A stretch of DNA of 64,000 bases, taken from the NCBI GenBank assembly GCA_017619375.1, contig JAFZSL010000068.1:1-64000 (forward strand), read 5' to 3'. Numbering within the stretch: the first letter of the stretch is position 1; each line of letters starts with the position of its first letter. The DNA comes from Prevotella sp. Its GTDB lineage: Bacteria; Bacteroidota; Bacteroidia; Bacteroidales; Bacteroidaceae. Below, piece after piece: positions 13,851-42,358 of the stretch. A program made the translations under genes and the position numbers. Below the pieces are notes generated by a model, which was given only the letters and a program-made list of their open reading frames with translations, did not search any database and had not been told where the DNA came from.

Positions 13851-13905
13851 CTAGGAAGTCCTAGGATGTACTAGGTAGTCCTAGGTATATCTAGGTCTTT
13901 CCAGG
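13851..13905. repeat. 10-bp period CTAGG array
   Basis: CTAGG occurs at 13851, 13861, 13871, 13881 and 13891, with CCAGG at 13901, an exact 10-bp register. The bases between vary (aagtc, atgta, tagtc, tatat, tcttt). It lies between the tkt start and the GH51 stop. Confidence 0.75.
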
Positions 13906-17207: not shown

Positions 17208-17251
17208 GGAGTTAAAGGGAAGTTAAAAGGAAGTTAAAGAGGAGTTAAAGG
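17208..17251. repeat. 11-bp period array, left of the four-helix-bundle gene
   Basis: Four 11-bp units at 17208-17218, 17219-17229, 17230-17240 and 17241-17251 (ggagttaaagg, gaagttaaaag, gaagttaaaga, ggagttaaagg). The same unit occurs inverted at 17732-17775 on the other side of the gene. Confidence 0.8.
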
Positions 17252-17264
17252 GACAATAGTACAT

Positions 17265-17639
17265 TTAGCTTTGCAATCCATTGTTTTCGATGATACCTTT
17301 GCAATAAGCATTTAAATAGAAACTTGTTCCTTCAATGCTATAAACCATAGTGTTGTATGTTTCTTCAGAGACATAACCTAAATCTTTGGATAGCATAATG
17401 TAACATCTGCATTCCTCAAGACTGCCTTGTGCAATATTCAGCATCCGCAACTTGTCTGCTTTGCTCAGTTTTTTATATCCTTCCGCAATGTTGGCTACGA
17501 TGGAAACCGCTGCTCTCTGAAATTGGGAGGATAAACCAAATTTCTCAAATTCAGGGAAATTAGCAGTGACTTTGTATGTCATCAGCACAAATTCAAATGC
17601 TTTCTGCCAAGCGACGATGTCCTTAAAGCTGAACGTCAT
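17265..17639 (-). CDS. Four-helix-bundle protein (23S rRNA intervening-sequence protein family)
   Basis: 124 residues. Matches the S23 / four-helix-bundle family: MTFSFKDIVAWQKAFEFV at the start, FGLSSQFQRAAVSIVANIAEGY in the middle and SLEECRCYIMLSKDLGYV later. The family is found in rRNA intervening sequences, where its role is unclear, and free in genomes, often near mobile DNA. Its base composition is more AT-rich than araA and araB, which it splits. It is flanked by inverted 11-bp arrays. I infer an insertion into the ara unit; any function in arabinose use is doubtful. Confidence 0.85.
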   Translation of the reverse strand: MTFSFKDIVAWQKAFEFVLMTYKVTANFPEFEKFGLSSQFQRAAVSIVANIAEGYKKLSKADKLRMLNIAQGSLEECRCYIMLSKDLGYVSEETYNTMVYSIEGTSFYLNAYCKGIIENNGLQS

Positions 17640-17731
17640 TAATATTGTTGTACTATGTTATGTAAGATGAACATTAGTCCATGAATGACCTCTGTTGGTA
17701 TGTGTAGAGATCTGTTAGGAGGAGTAATGTC

Positions 17732-17775
17732 CCTTTTACTCCCTTTTAACTCCCCTATAACTCCTTTTTAACTCC
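17732..17775. repeat. 11-bp period array, inverted copy right of the four-helix-bundle gene
   Basis: Four 11-bp units ending at 17742, 17753, 17764 and 17775 (ccttttactcc, cttttaactcc, cctataactcc, tttttaactcc). They are the inverse of the units at 17208-17251, so the two arrays could pair as a long stem around the gene. Confidence 0.8.
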
Positions 17776-17781
17776 TTTTCC

Positions 17782-19320
17782 TTATTTCAAAGATTTATTA
17801 AGCATGTAATACACCTCGTTCATCTGGAGCTCATGCTTGAACTCGCTGGTCTTGGTGGCCTTGTTGATGCGGACATACTCGATGCCGAGCATCTCGGCGA
17901 AGTCTTCCCAGTACTCCTCGGTGATGTCGTATGAGAATGCGCTGTGGTGAGTGCCACCAGCGAGAATCCATGCACCGGCGCCGATTTCGAATGTGGGCTG
18001 CGGCACCCAGAGTGCGGAAGCGACGGGCAGGTTGGGCATGGGCTTCGGCTCGATGCACTCCACCTCTTGTGAGATGAGGCGGAAGCGGTTGCCGAGGTCG
18101 ACGACGGTGGCCTTGATGCCACGTCCCACCTTGGATGTGAACACGAGGCGTGCGGTCTGCTGCTTGCGGATGCCGATGCCGAGGAAGTGAACCTCAAGCT
18201 TGGGTTTGTCGGAAGCAATCAGCGGACAAATCTCGAGCATGTGGCTCTGGAGGCAAGAGCTGTGGTCGCCGGCGAAGTTGAGGGTGTAGTCCTCGAGGAA
18301 GGAGCAGCCGGTGGGCATGCCTTGCTGGATGACCCAAAGCGTGCGATAGAGGCAGGCGGTCTTCCAGTCGCCCTCTGCGCCAAAGCCGTAGCCTTCTTCC
18401 ATCAGGCGCTGTGAGGCAAGACCTGGAATCTGGTCGAAACCAACGAAGTTCGGGTCGTCGATGTCGGCGTCGCCGAGGTCGTCGAAGTTGGTGGTGAAGG
18501 CGGTGGCTCCCTCGTCCTTCAGGACGTGGCGGAGTGCAATCTCTGCCTTGGCGGAGTTCTTCACTTTCTCCCAGTAAACTTCTTCGCCACTCTCGTCAAT
18601 CTTGATGGTGTAAAGTTTCTTGTACTCCTCTACGAGGGCGTCGGCCTCTGCGTCGGTCACTTTCTTGTAGTACTCCATCAGGGAGGAGACGGGATAGTAG
18701 TCCACATGGTAGCCCATGCGCTGCTCGAACTCCACACGGTCGCCGTCGGTGACGGCCACGTTGTTCATGTTCATGCCGAACATCAGGCAGCGTACGTTCT
18801 TGGCATCGGCTACACCAGCAGCGACGCGTGCCCATACGGCAATCTTCTTCTGTGCCTCTTCGCTCTTCCAGTAGCCGCAAACCACCTTGCGGGGAACACG
18901 CATGCGGGTGCAGATATGACCGAACTCGATGTCACCGTGAGCACTCTGGTTCAGGTTCATGAAGTCCATGTCGATTGTCTCCCAAGGAATCTCAGCGTTG
19001 TATTGTGTGTGGAAATGGAGGAGAGGCTTCTGGAGTGCCTGCAAACCCTTGATCCACATCTTGGCGGGAGAGAAGGTGTGCATCCAGGTGATGATGCCTA
19101 CGCACTTCTCGTCGTTGTTGGCGGCTTTCATCACGTCTTCCACTTCCTTGCTGCTGTTGGCAGTGCCTTTGTAGACCACCTTGATGGGGAGGTTGCCACT
19201 GGCGTTGAGGCCTTCCACCATCTCCTTGGAGTGTCCGTCTACTTGTACCACGGCGTCGCCTCCGTAAAGAAGTTGTGCACCTGTTACCCACCAAATCTCA
19301 TAATTCTCGAATGCTTTCAT
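17782..19320 (-). CDS. araA: L-arabinose isomerase
   Basis: 512 residues, close to the usual 500. Converts L-arabinose to L-ribulose with a divalent metal. Family motifs are present: WVTGAQLLYGGDAV at the start, WMHTFSPAKMWIKGLQ, LFGMNMNNVAVTDGDRVEFE, ERGYGFGAEGDWKT-like LMEEGYGFGAEGDWKT with a metal Glu, GDHSSCLQSHMLEICP with a metal His and GGTHHSAFSYD near the end. The start MKAFENYEIW is supported by conservation. It follows araD across a strict 9-bp CTAG array and precedes the four-helix-bundle gene. Confidence 0.96.
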   Translation of the reverse strand: MKAFENYEIWWVTGAQLLYGGDAVVQVDGHSKEMVEGLNASGNLPIKVVYKGTANSSKEVEDVMKAANNDEKCVGIITWMHTFSPAKMWIKGLQALQKPLLHFHTQYNAEIPWETIDMDFMNLNQSAHGDIEFGHICTRMRVPRKVVCGYWKSEEAQKKIAVWARVAAGVADAKNVRCLMFGMNMNNVAVTDGDRVEFEQRMGYHVDYYPVSSLMEYYKKVTDAEADALVEEYKKLYTIKIDESGEEVYWEKVKNSAKAEIALRHVLKDEGATAFTTNFDDLGDADIDDPNFVGFDQIPGLASQRLMEEGYGFGAEGDWKTACLYRTLWVIQQGMPTGCSFLEDYTLNFAGDHSSCLQSHMLEICPLIASDKPKLEVHFLGIGIRKQQTARLVFTSKVGRGIKATVVDLGNRFRLISQEVECIEPKPMPNLPVASALWVPQPTFEIGAGAWILAGGTHHSAFSYDITEEYWEDFAEMLGIEYVRINKATKTSEFKHELQMNEVYYMLNKSLK

Positions 19321-19362
19321 AATGTCTTTTTATTGTTATTGATGATAGTTGTGATAGATTTT

Positions 19363-19444
19363 TTTCCTAGGGGGCCTAGTAATCCTAGTTTTCCTAGTAG
19401 TCCTAGTATTTCTAGGGATTTTAGTGATCCTAGTGATTCTAGGA
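19363..19444. repeat. 9-bp period CTAG array between araA and araD
   Basis: CTAG begins at 19367, 19376, 19385, 19394, 19403, 19412, 19430 and 19439, with TTAG at 19421. All lie on one 9-bp register over nine units. The surrounding bases vary. It runs right up to the araD stop codon. Confidence 0.85.
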
Positions 19445-19446
19445 TT

Positions 19447-20145
19447 TTAGTGTTTTTTCTGGCCGTAGTAGGCGTTGGGGCCATGCTTGCGGCTGAAGTG
19501 TTTCTCGATGAGGAGCGGGTTCATCGTCGTTGAGGGGTTGACGCAGAAGGAAACGAAAGCCATCTTGGCCACCTGCTCCATCACCACTGCGTTGTATACG
19601 GCTTTGTCGGCGTCCTTGCCCCATGAGAATGGACCATGGTTCTTCACCAGTACGCCGGGGGTATGGACGGGGTTGATGTTGCCAGCCTTGATGCGGTCGA
19701 CAATCACCACGCCGGTCTCTTTCTCATATTCTGCCATCTGGCTCTCCACCATGTCGTCCGTGCAAGGGATGGCATCGTGGAAGTAGTCGGCATGTGTGGT
19801 GCCGATGTTGGGGATGTCCTTTCCTGCTTGCGCCCACGCGGTGGCATAGGTGGAATGGGTGTGCACGATTCCGCCCAGTTCAGGGAAGGCGCGATAAAGG
19901 ACGAGGTGCGTGGGTGTGTCGGAGGATGGGTTGAGGTCGCCCTCCACCACCTTGCCAGTCTCCAGGTCGACGACCACCATGTCGGATGCTTTCATCACGT
20001 CGTAGTCCACGCCGGAGGGTTTGATGACGACGAGGCCTTTCTCACGGTCGATGTCCGACACGTTGCCCCAGGTGAAAATCACCAAGTTGTGTTTGACCAA
20101 GTCGAGGTTGGCTTTGAATACTTTTTCTTTCAGTTCTTCTAACAT
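19447..20145 (-). CDS. araD: L-ribulose-5-phosphate 4-epimerase
   Basis: 232 residues. Class II aldolase-fold zinc enzyme that converts L-ribulose 5-phosphate to D-xylulose 5-phosphate. Zinc ligands are visible in [18 protein letters not shown] and downstream, with [27 protein letters not shown] at the N-terminus and [16 protein letters not shown] toward the end. The C-terminus [22 protein letters not shown] is typical of AraD. It lies between araR and araA, with a 9-bp array in each adjoining spacer. Confidence 0.96.
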
Positions 20146-20172
20146 GTTGTCTTTCCTTTGTGTTTTTGTGGC

Positions 20173-20272
20173 TTTTTCTAGTTTTTCTAGTTTTTCTAGT
20201 GTTCCTAGTATTCCTAGTATTCCTAGTATTCCTAGTATTCCTAGTATTTATAGTATTTCTATTAATCCTATA
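20173..20272. repeat. 9-bp period CTAG array between araD and araR
   Basis: Three exact copies of TTTTTCTAG (20173-20199) run in register into five exact copies of CCTAGTATT (20204-20248), then decaying units (ATAG at 20250, CTAT at 20259, CTA at 20268). The CTAG register is exactly 9 bp over 11 units. This is the cleanest array of the window. Confidence 0.9.
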
Positions 20273-20282
20273 TTCCTATGGA

Positions 20283-20960
20283 TTATAATTTGAAAGTGGG
20301 TTCCTGGTCGTATGCATTTTTGTTGAAGCGGTAGAGCATGGCGCCTCGCTTGGAGGTGAGCTTGTCGATGTGCTCGGTCTTCTCGATGAAGTCGATGCTC
20401 TTGATGCGCTTGCGGAAGTTTCGCTTGTCGATTTGCTCACCAAGGATGGCTTCGTAGACATGTTGCAGCTGGGTGAGTGTGAACAACTCGGGCAAGAGGT
20501 TGAAACTCAGCGGCTCGGTGCTGATGCGGCGGCGAAGGAGGGTGACAGCCTTGCGCACCATCTCGTTGTGGTCGGAATAGAGATGTGGGAGTTCGTTGAT
20601 GCTCACCCATTCCACCCCATGCTCCTTGCGCAGTTCATCATCGTAGTCCTTTACGTTGATGAGTGCACAATAGGCGACGGTGATGACACGCTCGCCTGGG
20701 TCGCGGTCGATGGCGCCGAACGCACCCACTTGCTTCATATAGATGTCTTTTAATCCTGTGAGAGTGAACAATACGCGGTTGGCGGCTTCCACAAGACTCT
20801 CGTCTTCGCGGACGAAACCTCCGTAGAGCGACCACTCGCCACGGCCTGGGTCCATCTGACGGCGGCCGATCAACAATTTCAACTTGTCGTGGTCGAATCC
20901 GAAGACGATGCAGTCTACCGATACAAAAACTTTGGAATGCTCACCATAGAATCCTGTCAT
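20283..20960 (-). CDS. araR: Nudix-domain transcriptional regulator of arabinose use (AraR, NrtR-like)
   Basis: 225 residues. N-terminal Nudix fold (about 10-140) and C-terminal winged-helix domain (about 150-225; LPELFTLTQLQHVYEAIL, DKRNFRKRIKSIDFI). The Nudix box region GGFVREDESLVEAANRVLF (47-65) keeps the Gly and first Glu, but the catalytic REUxEE is RVLFTL (62-67), so it should bind a ligand without hydrolysis. This matches the Bacteroides AraR family, which senses arabinose and controls ara operons. It lies within the regulated unit between the symporter and araD. Confidence 0.92.
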   Translation of the reverse strand: MTGFYGEHSKVFVSVDCIVFGFDHDKLKLLIGRRQMDPGRGEWSLYGGFVREDESLVEAANRVLFTLTGLKDIYMKQVGAFGAIDRDPGERVITVAYCALINVKDYDDELRKEHGVEWVSINELPHLYSDHNEMVRKAVTLLRRRISTEPLSFNLLPELFTLTQLQHVYEAILGEQIDKRNFRKRIKSIDFIEKTEHIDKLTSKRGAMLYRFNKNAYDQEPTFKL

Positions 20961-24395: not shown

Positions 24396-25559
24396 TTAGC
24401 AAATCTTGCGAGAGCCGTCTCCGATGACCACATCGATGACTTTCAACTCCTTGCCGAATTTCTCAGCATACCTCTTCTTCGCGTCGGCGATGAATTGGTC
24501 ATAAAGTTCGTCTTTCACCAGGTTGATGGTGCATCCACCGAAGCCGCCACCCATGATGCGGCTGCCAGTGACGCCGTCCTCCTTGGCGATGTCGTTGAGG
24601 AAGTCGAGTTCTTCGCAGCTCACCTCATACTCCTTGCTCAGGCCATAGTGGGTCTCGTACATCTTCTTTCCTACGGTCTCGTAGTCGCCGGCGACAAGGG
24701 CGTCGCAGACGGCGAGCACGCGGTCCTTCTCTCCGAGGACGAAATGTGCGCGGGTGTAGTCTTCCTCGCCCACTTCGGCACGCACTTCCTCGAGTTGCTC
24801 CCAAGTGCAGTCGCGGAGGGTCTCAAACTTTCCTTCCGGATGCTTGGCAGCGATGTGTTTCACCACGTTCTCGCAGGAATTGCGGCGGTCGTTGTAGGGA
24901 GAACCCACCAACTCGTGCTTCACGCAGGAGTTGAGCAGCACCACTTTGTATCCCACGGGGTTGAAGGGGAAGTACTCGAATTCGCGTGAGCGGCAGTCGA
25001 GGCGCATGAGGTTGCCTGCCTTGCCGAAGACGCTGGCGAACTGGTCCATGATGCCGCAGTTGACGCCGATGTATTTGTGTTCGGTGGCTTGTCCTGCGAG
25101 GGCGATGTCCCATTTCGACACCTTGTTGTCACCAAAGAGGTCGTTCAGGCCGCAGCCGAAGCAACTCTCCATAGCAGCGGAAGAGGACATGCCGGCGCCA
25201 AGAGGCACGTCGCCGGCGAAGGCGATGTTGAATCCCTTCACGGGTACGCCGAGGGCTTCCATCTCCAGGGCCATGCCGTAGATGAAGCGTGCCCAGGTGG
25301 CACGGGGGCCTTGTCCGTCATGGAAGTCAAAGTCCACGCGGTCTTTCAGGTCGATGGAGTAGGCACGGATGGTGCTCTCTGTGCCGTTGGGGCGCATCTC
25401 TGCCATGATGCCGAGGTTAACGGCTCCTGGGAAGACGAAGCCACCGTTGTAGTCGGTGTGCTCGCCAATGAGGTTGATACGTCCGGGAGAATGATAAATG
25501 TTGCCGGTCTGACCGTCAAAATGCTTGATGAAGCGACTTCTTACAAATTCGATGTCCAT
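24396..25559 (-). CDS. galK: Galactokinase
   Basis: 387 residues, normal for GalK. Phosphorylates alpha-D-galactose at C1 with ATP in the Leloir pathway. The galactokinase signature GRINLIGEHTDYNGGFVFPGA is at residues 24-44, the GHMP ATP motif is DVPLGAGMSSSAAMES, and the C-terminal GSRIMGGGFGGCTINLV is intact. It is the last gene of the galM-gluP-galK group, the order known from Bacteroides. A 7-bp array fills the spacer to gluP. Confidence 0.97.
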   Translation of the reverse strand: MDIEFVRSRFIKHFDGQTGNIYHSPGRINLIGEHTDYNGGFVFPGAVNLGIMAEMRPNGTESTIRAYSIDLKDRVDFDFHDGQGPRATWARFIYGMALEMEALGVPVKGFNIAFAGDVPLGAGMSSSAAMESCFGCGLNDLFGDNKVSKWDIALAGQATEHKYIGVNCGIMDQFASVFGKAGNLMRLDCRSREFEYFPFNPVGYKVVLLNSCVKHELVGSPYNDRRNSCENVVKHIAAKHPEGKFETLRDCTWEQLEEVRAEVGEEDYTRAHFVLGEKDRVLAVCDALVAGDYETVGKKMYETHYGLSKEYEVSCEELDFLNDIAKEDGVTGSRIMGGGFGGCTINLVKDELYDQFIADAKKRYAEKFGKELKVIDVVIGDGSRKIC

Positions 25560-25561
25560 GT

Positions 25562-25603
25562 TATTTAGTTTTGAGAATTTAGTTTTGAGAATTGAGATTT
25601 CAA
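25562..25603. repeat. 7-bp period array between galK and gluP
   Basis: AG recurs at 25567, 25574, 25581, 25588 and 25595, an exact 7-bp register. Units alternate TTTTGAG, AATTTAG, TTTTGAG, AATTGAG. It lies between the gluP stop and the galK start. Confidence 0.7.
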
Positions 25604-25610
25604 ATCTATT

Positions 25611-28266: not shown

Positions 28267-28360
28267 TGTAGGTGGTTATAGGTAGTCTTAGGTAGTCCTA
28301 GGTAGCCCTAGGAAGTCCTAGAGGGTCCTAGGATCCTAGGAAAGTCTAGGATATCCTATA
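28267..28360. repeat. 10-bp period CTAGG array between galM and folC
   Basis: TAGG-type cores have TA at 28269, 28279, 28289, 28299, 28309, 28319 and 28329, an exact 10-bp register, then 28337, 28347 and 28357 after one 8-bp step. The last units overlap the folC stop region (28346 onward). Confidence 0.75.
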
Positions 28361-29638
28361 AAATCCCAAAAAATCTGCCACCACGTAGCTGCTGCCGCCG
28401 ACAAAGATGAAATCCTCTGGTGCGGCGTCGCGTCGTGCAGCCTCGAAAGCTTCCTTCACGGTGTGGAAGGCTTGGCCGTGCAGCCCTTTTTGCTCTCCCG
28501 TTTCACGCACCTTCTCTTCGTCGATGGCTCGGTGGCTGCTGGCCCGGGTGAAATAGTAGTCGGCGTCGGGTGGCAAGAGACCCATCACGGTGTCGAGGTC
28601 CTTGTCGTCCACCATGCCGAAGACGATGCGCATGCGGCGGCATTCCACCTCGCGCAGTTGTCGTGCCAGCCACTGCCAGCCACCCACGTTGTGTCCAGTG
28701 TCCAATACCACGGTCGGCCGTTCGCCCACTTGTTGCCATCGACCCATCAGCCCAGTATTCCTGCAAACCTTGCCGAGTCCTTGTCGGATGTCCTCGGTGG
28801 TGATGGGATAGTCCATGTCCTGTAAAAGGGAAATGGCGTGGAGGATGGTGTCGGTGTTGCGGGTCTGGTAGTGCCCGCCGAGGTCGCTGTCAAAGTCGCC
28901 AAAGGGTTGGGTGAGGTAGTGGCGCGTGTAATGTGGTCCGTCGGTGGCGGCGATGACAAAGGGATGGTCCTCGGCAAAGGTGATAGGGGCTCCCGCTTCG
29001 GCGGCTTTCGCCTCGAATACGGGACGCGTCTCCTCGGTGGCCTCGCCGATGACCACGGGGATGCCGGGCTTGATGATGCCGGCTTTCTCTGCGGCGATTT
29101 TGGCGACGGTGTCGCCTAAGAACTGCGTGTGGTCCAGACTGATGTTGGTGATGACGCAGAGGTCGGGAGTGATGATATTGGTGCAGTCGAGGCGTCCGCC
29201 AAGGCCCACTTCCACGACGGCTACGTCGACCGCTTGCTTGGCGAAATAGTCGAAGGCCATCGCAGTGGTCAACTCGAAGAAAGACGGGTGGAGGGGCTCG
29301 AAGAAGTCGCGGTGGTGCGCCACGAAGTCGACCACGTATTCCTCGCTGATGCATACGCCGTTGATGCGGATACGTTCGCGGAAGTCGACGAGGTGCGGAG
29401 AGGTGTACAACCCCACGCGGAGGCCAGCCTCTTGCAGGATAGAGGCGATGGAATGCGAGACGGACCCCTTGCCGTTTGTGCCTGCCACATGGATGGTCTT
29501 GAAAAGGCGGTGGGGATGGCCGAGGCGGGTGTCGAGGGCGTGGGTGTTGGAAAGGCCCTCCTTATATGCACCAGCCCCGATCTTCTCAAAGACCGGGGTG
29601 CAGTTGTAAAGGTATTCCACCGTTTCCTTGTAGGTCAT
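28346..29638 (-). CDS. folC: Folylpolyglutamate synthase / dihydrofolate synthase
   Basis: 430 residues from MTYKETVEYLYNCTPVFEKIG. Adds glutamate to dihydropteroate and folates with ATP. The Mur-ligase P-loop is VAGTNGKGSVSHSIASIL; SPHLVDFRERIRING follows, and FEVGLGGRLD-type VVEVGLGGRLDCTN is present. An upstream Met would add 32 residues encoded by a 9-bp periodic array (repeating YSD), which is clearly spacer rather than protein. The 3' end coincides with the CTAGG array after galM. Confidence 0.94.
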   Translation of the reverse strand: MTYKETVEYLYNCTPVFEKIGAGAYKEGLSNTHALDTRLGHPHRLFKTIHVAGTNGKGSVSHSIASILQEAGLRVGLYTSPHLVDFRERIRINGVCISEEYVVDFVAHHRDFFEPLHPSFFELTTAMAFDYFAKQAVDVAVVEVGLGGRLDCTNIITPDLCVITNISLDHTQFLGDTVAKIAAEKAGIIKPGIPVVIGEATEETRPVFEAKAAEAGAPITFAEDHPFVIAATDGPHYTRHYLTQPFGDFDSDLGGHYQTRNTDTILHAISLLQDMDYPITTEDIRQGLGKVCRNTGLMGRWQQVGERPTVVLDTGHNVGGWQWLARQLREVECRRMRIVFGMVDDKDLDTVMGLLPPDADYYFTRASSHRAIDEEKVRETGEQKGLHGQAFHTVKEAFEAARRDAAPEDFIFVGGSSYVVADFLGFYRIS

Positions 29639-29651
29639 GGGCAAGGATTTG

Positions 29652-29696
29652 TCGAAGTAGTCGGAGTAATCGGAATTGTCGGAGTAATAGGAGTTA
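29652..29696. repeat. 9-bp period array upstream of folC (TCGGAGTAA units)
   Basis: TCG cores at 29652, 29661, 29670 and 29679, and TAG at 29688, keep a 9-bp register. Because 9 is a multiple of three the array stays open on the minus strand and mimics an N-terminal extension of FolC. Confidence 0.65.
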
Positions 29697-29749
29697 ACGA
29701 AAATAGTGTTGTCATTCGCGGGGTTTTGTCGCAAACTTCGAGCGTATCG

Positions 29750-42290: not shown

Positions 42291-42358
42291 TCTAATATTC
42301 TTAGTGCCCCCAATATTCCTAGTGTCCCTAGAGCCTCTGGTACTCCTGGAGCCTATAG
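42291..42358. repeat. 9-bp period CTAG-like array after the CE1 esterase
   Basis: Cores at 42293 (CTAA), 42302 (TTAG), 42311 (CCAA), 42320 (CTAG), 42329 (CTAG), 42338 (CTGG) and 42347 (CTGG) share one 9-bp register. It begins 13 nt past the esterase stop on the plus strand, so such arrays are not limited to minus-strand genes. Confidence 0.65.

Follow-up and report, generated by a model that had tools for sequence, protein, structure and literature searches.

Two spacers between the arabinose genes of a Prevotella genome carry arrays in which CTAG recurs every 9 bp, and we found both to be one piece of a family-wide phenomenon: short-period arrays stand beside genes of the TIGR04258 type of four helix bundle protein, and the core and period of these arrays match the clade of the protein. 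Such a match of core and period to protein subfamily hints at an undescribed kind of spreading repeat. To summarize its biology, we consider it an even call that the CTAG arrays represent dispersed copies, without the gene, of a repeat family that has a TIGR04258-type protein gene as its cognate, the cis-element being, as part of the same explanation, a short fixed-period array with a fixed core of about 4 bp and otherwise variable bases, with each protein clade having its own core and period.

The window, by which we mean the whole stretch of 64,000 nucleotides that was analysed, belongs to a genome of 4.26 Mb in 78 contigs (G000), with G442 as its nearest relative (araD 98% identical). Its relevant features are as follows, with arrays given without strand.

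13851..13896, no strand: CTAG-10 array (10-bp period) with five CTAG, downstream of the arabinofuranosidase gene
17210..17253, no strand: TTAA-11 array on one side of the small four helix bundle gene
17265..17639, minus strand: small four helix bundle gene (23S_rRNA_IVP, PF05635 / TIGR02436), between araA and a sugar kinase gene
17730..17779, no strand: TTAA-11 array on the other side of that gene, inverted relative to 17210..17253
17782..19320, minus strand: araA, L-arabinose isomerase
19363..19446, no strand: CTAG-9 array (9-bp period) between the araD stop side and the araA start side
19447..20145, minus strand: araD-like class II aldolase gene
20178..20278, no strand: CTAG-9 array between araR and araD
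20283..20960, minus strand: araR-like regulator gene (NUDIX plus NrtR/AraR winged helix)
28279..28349 (CTAG from 28298), no strand: CTAG-10 array with one 8-bp step
42294..42331, no strand: short array with two CTAG 9 bp apart

Both ara-spacer arrays hold their register strictly, with eight CTAG sharing one 9-bp register and one degenerate unit (TTAG) at 19363..19446, and eight CTAG in a single register followed by degenerate units at 20178..20278. The CTAG positions given in a preliminary description of this DNA were all exact, that of the TTAG at 19421 included, as were the two units it reported as fused in the second array (TTTTTCTAG x3 and CCTAGTATT x5). It had called the periodicity far from random, a view that equally periodic shuffled spacers would have undone; shuffling the two spacers (19321-19446 and 20146-20282) with dinucleotide content kept did not yield the register, as the observed eight CTAG per 9-bp register were matched in 0 of 2000 shuffles of each spacer (maximum 3), and with any tetramer and any period from 7 to 11 allowed the observed value was reached in 0 of 1000 shuffles of either one. 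The 9-bp register was thus borne out in both ara spacers but is not the sole one, as two further CTAG arrays of the window run at 10 bp (13851-13894; 28298-28349). Similarly, the rarity ascribed to CTAG stood in that the window has fewer CTAG than GATC (33 versus 61), but GATC falls further below its Markov expectation (0.22 versus 0.38); 29 of the 33 CTAG have another within 10 bp. The array at 13851..13896 matches the genome's own TIGR04258 clade in period and in its CTAGG-like core, and the gene at 28346-29734 has its TAG stop within the last CTAG of the 28279..28349 array. A known RNA family was ruled out as the identity of the arrays, with no Rfam family reaching its gathering score anywhere in the window.

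Evaluating the anatomy of the 9-bp arrays, we found a unit of CTAG plus five variable bases. Across 146 arrays neighbouring units agreed at 0.99 in CTAG and at 0.57 (0.565) in the other five bases, and in the window's genome (12 arrays) at 0.98 and 0.46, the CTAG agreement being inflated because the arrays were found via their CTAG, with gaps from lost CTAG allowed. CTAG is thus kept while the five bases vary, which is not the equal change at all unit bases of a simple minisatellite. The variable bases agreed more between units two apart (0.629) than between adjacent ones (0.565), and only at 0.307 between arrays, from which it follows that blocks of one or two units are copied in register. 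Turnover is visible between near relatives as well: along 33 kb at ~84-92% nucleotide identity, the window's genome and G442 differ in array length, units and even core at the same sites. These in-register block copies and whole-unit differences fit the copying process adding fixed-length units that had been proposed at the outset, and the other proposal, selection for spacing in the ara spacers, is not supported, since most orthologous spacers are array-free and arrays of other species lie in frame inside unrelated essential genes. Among the best 30 of 46 matches to the araR-araD-araA locus in the genus, most spacers were short, only the window's genome and G442 had CTAG-9 arrays in them, and G415 had a 10-bp array with CTAG and CTAA. 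Related genomes do mostly lack arrays in these two ara spacers, but they show the same register at other sites.

Scanning the whole genome, we counted 72 overlapping windows of CTAG-N5-CTAG-N5-CTAG and 0 for the reversed control (GATC). In a 400-kb sample of this genome, made up of the window and 20 stretches mostly picked for an array on the contig, CTAG was the most regular of the 256 tetramers, with 57 regular triples from 134 sites (51 at 9 bp, 6 at 10 bp and none at any other spacing), followed by TTAA with 26 triples from 532 sites. Four CTAG at exactly 9 bp occurred in 107 of the 399 genomes of the family and in 13 of the 33 of the genus, and the reversed control gave one place each in two of the 399 genomes. 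A broader scan for five CTAG at 9 bp, using one genome per species, returned at least 118 loci with titles nearly all from Bacteroidales or Bacteroidota. Among the loci listed, 10 came from contigs titled Victivallales, Kiritimatiellae, Lentisphaeria or Verrucomicrobia, mostly from rumen (L017, L043, L074, L078, L091, L102, L103, L128, L131 and L055), and a further 7 from Planctomycetes, Achromobacter, Roizmanbacteria, Myxococcota, Thiotrichales, a gammaproteobacterium and Teredinibacter, which may be unrelated repeats. Spread through viruses was set aside as an idea, since viral contigs held at least 119 five-CTAG stretches at 9 bp yet at least 120 for the GATC control, which makes the count uninformative; the fetched viral loci contained no TIGR04258-like gene. 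Arrays of other kinds are also present in the window's genome, for example about 24 units of a 7-bp CCAATCT-type repeat in a spacer flanked by two genes (L178 2965-3129).

Looking at what adjoins the arrays, we found two loci (L052 and L075) in which paired CTAG-9 arrays enclose a four helix bundle gene, of a protein type that NCBIfam names TIGR04258, 'four helix bundle suffix', and that is kin to the 23S rRNA intervening-sequence protein. Four such proteins scanned against NCBIfam matched TIGR04258 and TIGR02436 (three of the four over the TIGR02436 cut-off) and no transposase. TIGR04258 genes were present in 6 of the 118 array-picked loci listed, with a scoring array directly adjoining in 5 of the 6, and TIGR04258 matches in 143 of the 399 genomes of the family. 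After matches below 200 bits in our own profile (fragments, frameshifted copies and L356) had been left out, 80 of 96 distinct TIGR04258 genes had a short-period array within 200 bp on at least one side and 34 on both, compared with 51 and 11, respectively, of 225 control genes from the array-rich genome of the window. Excluding the 6 array-picked loci and 20 genes from array-rich genomes left 58 of 70 (Fisher p 1e-19). The stronger array had a period of 9 at 53 of these genes, 10 at 24, 7 at 2 and 14 at 1; the stop codon was a TAG inside CTAG in 19 of the 96; and among the 45 genes whose flanks shared a word of at least 10 bp the word was direct in 42 and inverted in 3, the other 51 having no such word. 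One such gene has >50 CTAG at 8-bp spacing beside it and a 9-bp CTAG array on the opposite side (L042 3972-4600, with L020 1936). Over the 399 genomes, TIGR04258 and CTAG-9 arrays occurred together in 82, the array only in 25, the gene only in 61 and neither in 231 (p 2e-24, a value inflated by shared ancestry; Mantel-Haenszel odds ratio within genera 4.8). The 61 genomes with the gene and no CTAG-9 match would be expected if they have other clades of the protein.

The clade of the protein and the core and period of its arrays also go together. Protein identity correlated with array 4-mer similarity for pairs below 80% identity (Mantel r 0.70, reached in 0 of 2000 permutations, maximum 0.15), and when the eight array clusters of at least 3 members were mapped on a tree of 76 proteins, matches below 200 bits again being left out, 11 changes were required, compared with a shuffled mean of 34.8 and with 0 of 200 shuffles as low, three small clusters being unclustered or weakly clustered. 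Even among 231 pairs at 60-80% identity with no common neighbour gene, the mean cosine was 0.62 and the period was the same in 84%. A clade of 22 rows that includes the gene of the window's genome pairs with CTAGG-10, another with TAAAG-9 and a third with CTAG-9, and further pairs by clade include CNGAG-9, GTCGGAC-9, CTATAG-9 and others. We fixed one prediction before searching, namely that genomes with a gene of the 10-bp clade have dispersed CTAG-10 arrays, and subtracted triples at the gene itself. Of 24 genomes with a 10-bp-clade gene 20 had such arrays, as did 14 of 56 without a sampled one (Mann-Whitney p 3e-8), the 56 including six genomes without any TIGR04258 match and some with unsampled second genes; G065 (20) and G086 (25) are among the 14. 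The same split of genomes showed no difference in CTAG-9 arrays (p 0.28). The CTAG-9 counterpart was weak, with further arrays in 12 of 12 genomes having a gene of the CTAG-9 group at p 0.03, some of them chosen for their arrays.

Arrays also occur where the matching gene does not, which counts against the explanation offered here. The only TIGR04258 gene of the window's genome (C63:30385-30531) belongs to the 10-bp clade, so that the 9-bp arrays of the ara spacers are without a resident cognate gene. That gene is flanked by ACCTA-10 arrays resembling solo arrays elsewhere in the genome, and between the same host genes in G442 both the gene and its arrays are absent. Among the 107 genomes bearing CTAG-9, 25 gave no TIGR04258 match; two of these array-only genomes (G299 and G281, both ~99% complete) gave no match to TIGR04258, TIGR02436 or PF05635, and a third (G380, 83% complete) none to TIGR04258 or TIGR02436. 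The idea that a different four helix bundle gene serves as partner in array-only genomes was not upheld, TIGR02436 being found in 7 of 10 such genomes and not in these three. The G299 arrays are clustered in sequence of normal GC and have units like those of the window's genome, and a 340-kb sample of G299 was array-free. Array-only genomes may reflect gene loss, import of arrays or another partner.

We then considered where arrays lie relative to genes, which outside the named genes of the window were called with our own dicodon caller. In the window's genome, 102 of 106 arrayed CTAG were intergenic, and 17 of 28 single CTAG were in genes; its arrays comprised 13 in co-directional, 4 in convergent and 1 in divergent spacers, with 2 at edges. 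Of 151 arrays with at least 3 CTAG placed in the 118 listed loci, 28 lay inside called genes and 19 at edges, and the 104 between genes were divided into 82 co-directional, 16 convergent and 6 divergent, against 325, 48 and 62, respectively, for gaps of at least 30 bp in those loci. Co-directional arrays began a median of 15.5 nt behind the upstream stop, and in 15 of the 82 this stop was supplied by the TAG of the array's first CTAG. Two ideas found no support in these data: tandem backup stop codons, given an even TAG phase (20, 18, 20) with arrays starting in the stop set aside, and a purine-strand bias relative to transcription, given a per-array purine fraction spanning 0.12 to 1.0.

Each of the 28 arrays inside genes is translated in one of the two TAG-free frames (9 and 19). 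Family scans named ten array-bearing genes, with alanyl-tRNA ligase (alaS), TruB (truB), carbamoyl-phosphate synthase small subunit (carA), GcvPB (gcvPB), glutamate synthase small subunit (gltD) and a ribosomal-protection-like ABC-F protein over their cut-offs, and IleS (cut by the locus end), a TolC family protein, a MurL-like protein and a joined GGGP-TadA frame below them. Aligning 31 alaS sequences placed the arrays as insertions in two loops, CTAG occurring in 6 of the sequences at the first loop and in 2 at the second; one alaS (L208) carries there a 9-bp array of a different core with no CTAG. The alaS loops that hold CTAG arrays elsewhere hold in-frame GC-rich repeats with inverted ends in three loci (L206, L213 and L217). 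In the joined frame (L079 4894-5746), a CTAG array bridges the last part of a GGGP-synthase-like gene and a TadA-like gene, as though it had taken the place of the stop and start codons that would separate the two.

The smaller kin of these genes have arrays of their own. In the window, the product of 17265..17639 exceeds the PF05635 cut-off, and its gene stands between the inverted TTAA-11 arrays listed above; TTAA-11 arrays occur at ten places of the 400-kb sample (including L168, L169, L170, L179, L180 and L182) and often start with ACATATGTCCC. An array stood on a side of 19 of 20 genes of the small type, mostly at 7 bp or its double, and the longer shared word of the flanks was inverted at 16 of the 20 and direct at 2, with 2 ties. 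At 25559-25610 the window's genome has an array alone; at the same place in G442 (L350), inverted 7-bp arrays enclose a small four helix bundle gene, the gene having been gained or lost inside an array. In another araD-araA spacer (L154), an open frame that we take to encode a GxxExxY protein lies between inverted copies of a CCCTTCGGGCG-type repeat.

How would such arrays arise and spread? In the explanation that we prefer, the TIGR04258 protein, alone or with a host polymerase or nuclease, would recognise the core in DNA or RNA, and this recognition would help units with the core to duplicate and spread. Because a unit that loses the core would not be copied again, the core would be held while the other bases drift, and arrays would settle where they do least harm, that is after stops, in co-directional or convergent spacers and in tolerant protein loops, which can bear them because 9 bp is three codons. 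We infer the protein's causal part in spread or expansion, its activity and its substrate, DNA or RNA, from associations among genomes, and we know of no catalytic site in the four helix bundle fold. Given that period and core follow the protein, we favour a relation like that of REP and RAYT, and homing of the gene into arrays made otherwise would produce these associations too. In such homing, slippage or microhomology-mediated duplication at CTAG would make the arrays and TIGR04258 cassettes would insert into them as safe targets. We regard this as possible but rather unlikely: it is consistent with flanks that are direct (42 versus 3 inverted), as if the gene had landed inside one array, with the TAG stop within CTAG in 19 of 96 genes, with arrays in genomes lacking any such gene and with in-register block copies, which are what slippage gives, but it leaves unexplained why CTAG, among all tetramers, recurs at 9 or 10 bp and, unless the gene persists only where its targets are, why 10-bp spacing goes with a 10-bp-clade gene. 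It is also a less economical account of the same data than protein-promoted copying.

Arrays kept by the host for regulation, either as binding sites or as RNA signals for termination, mRNA ends or translation of the next gene with the four helix bundle protein or some other factor as their reader, seem to us improbable. The position bias (82/16/6 against 325/48/62), the closeness of co-directional arrays to the upstream stop and a constant core amid changing bases, which suggests binding, speak for such a role, but the positions would follow just as well from arrays avoiding promoters and open reading frames, 28 of 151 arrays lie inside called genes (alaS, truB, carA, gcvPB and gltD among them) and the orthologous ara spacers are mostly without arrays. 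Least credible, and already hard to hold, are ordinary minisatellites without a partner, with the TIGR04258 link as mere hitch-hiking in permissive spacers; other short tandem arrays in the genome and the CTAG-free 9-bp array of one alaS accord with this, but it is at odds with the clade-specific core and period and with the period-specific genome test. Returning to protein-promoted copying, we tentatively put forward, with somewhat less than even confidence, a wider reading in which TIGR04258 and IVP proteins would be the active partners of undescribed spreading DNA whose mobile unit is the short-period array and not a two-ended element, each clade writing or selecting its core and period, and in which the CTAG arrays of Bacteroidales, down to those in tRNA synthetase loops, would be its traces. 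If true, this would give a function to the widespread S23p / four helix bundle family, whose role in intervening sequences has been open for decades, would place a second gene-plus-dispersed-repeat system alongside REP/RAYT and would explain one way in which spacers and protein loops change rapidly in abundant bacteria of the gut and rumen; predictions from the clade-period pairing are open to immediate testing in any collection of strains.

In the open-access literature we found neither a paper on Bacteroidales CTAG arrays nor one on repeats adjoining TIGR04258 genes, and no mention of 'four helix bundle suffix', with a combined family query giving the same result. Among known systems, several share some of these traits. 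Intergenic direct repeats of TAACTGA are described from Beggiatoaceae, Cyanobacteria and five Bacteroidetes, and, as in our arrays, short units run head to tail between genes, with many sets per genome and a patchy distribution; they differ in being a single fixed heptamer with no variable part, for which the portions of that report drawn on here propose no cognate gene, and in lying mostly just before start codons in the Beggiatoa genome (PMC4679880). The palindromic elements of Rickettsia are likewise dispersed repeats found in frame in unrelated protein genes, but they are palindromes of ~150 bp rather than short-period arrays, and a four helix bundle partner is not mentioned in the portions used (PMC10969869). 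The small protein of the window weakly resembles the Avd and bAvd proteins of diversity-generating retroelements, below both cut-offs (38 bits against 80 for Avd and 30.6 against 40 for bAvd).

The intervening sequences (IVSs) of 23S rRNA and their S23p proteins come closer. In the portions of PMC4990558 considered, the IVS of Coxiella burnetii is described with inverted ends and, immediately ahead of its S23p gene, a small number of tandem heptamers whose copy number varies among strains; S23p from Xanthomonas campestris forms a pentameric ring, and what IVS-like elements do and where they come from is called unclear. Our proteins belong to the same superfamily, and the window's 17265-17639 gene has inverted TTAA-11 arrays; inverted ends are a trait of the small genes and not of TIGR04258. 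IVSs are known from rRNA genes, whereas the elements described here lie between protein genes, the 17265-17639 gene being between araA and the sugar kinase gene and not in 23S rRNA, and TIGR04258 proteins are larger, with direct 9- or 10-bp arrays and dispersed solo arrays.

The closest parallel in logic is REP/RAYT, where, in the sections of PMC2817692 drawn on here, RAYT genes are flanked by inverted REPs, protein and repeat trees match and repeat number correlates with presence of the gene. Likewise, TIGR04258 genes are flanked by their own repeats (80 of 96 on a side, 34 on both), many dispersed copies are without a gene, and protein and repeat phylogenies match with repeat number following the gene, weakly so for CTAG-9. 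In contrast, REPs are inverted and palindromic while TIGR04258 arrays are direct, with 9- or 10-bp units head to tail, and RAYT is an HUH-type transposase while the proteins here are four helix bundles, the four scanned having no transposase match. What appears to be new is the link between TIGR04258 and the arrays, which resembles REP/RAYT in its logic with a different protein and a different repeat.
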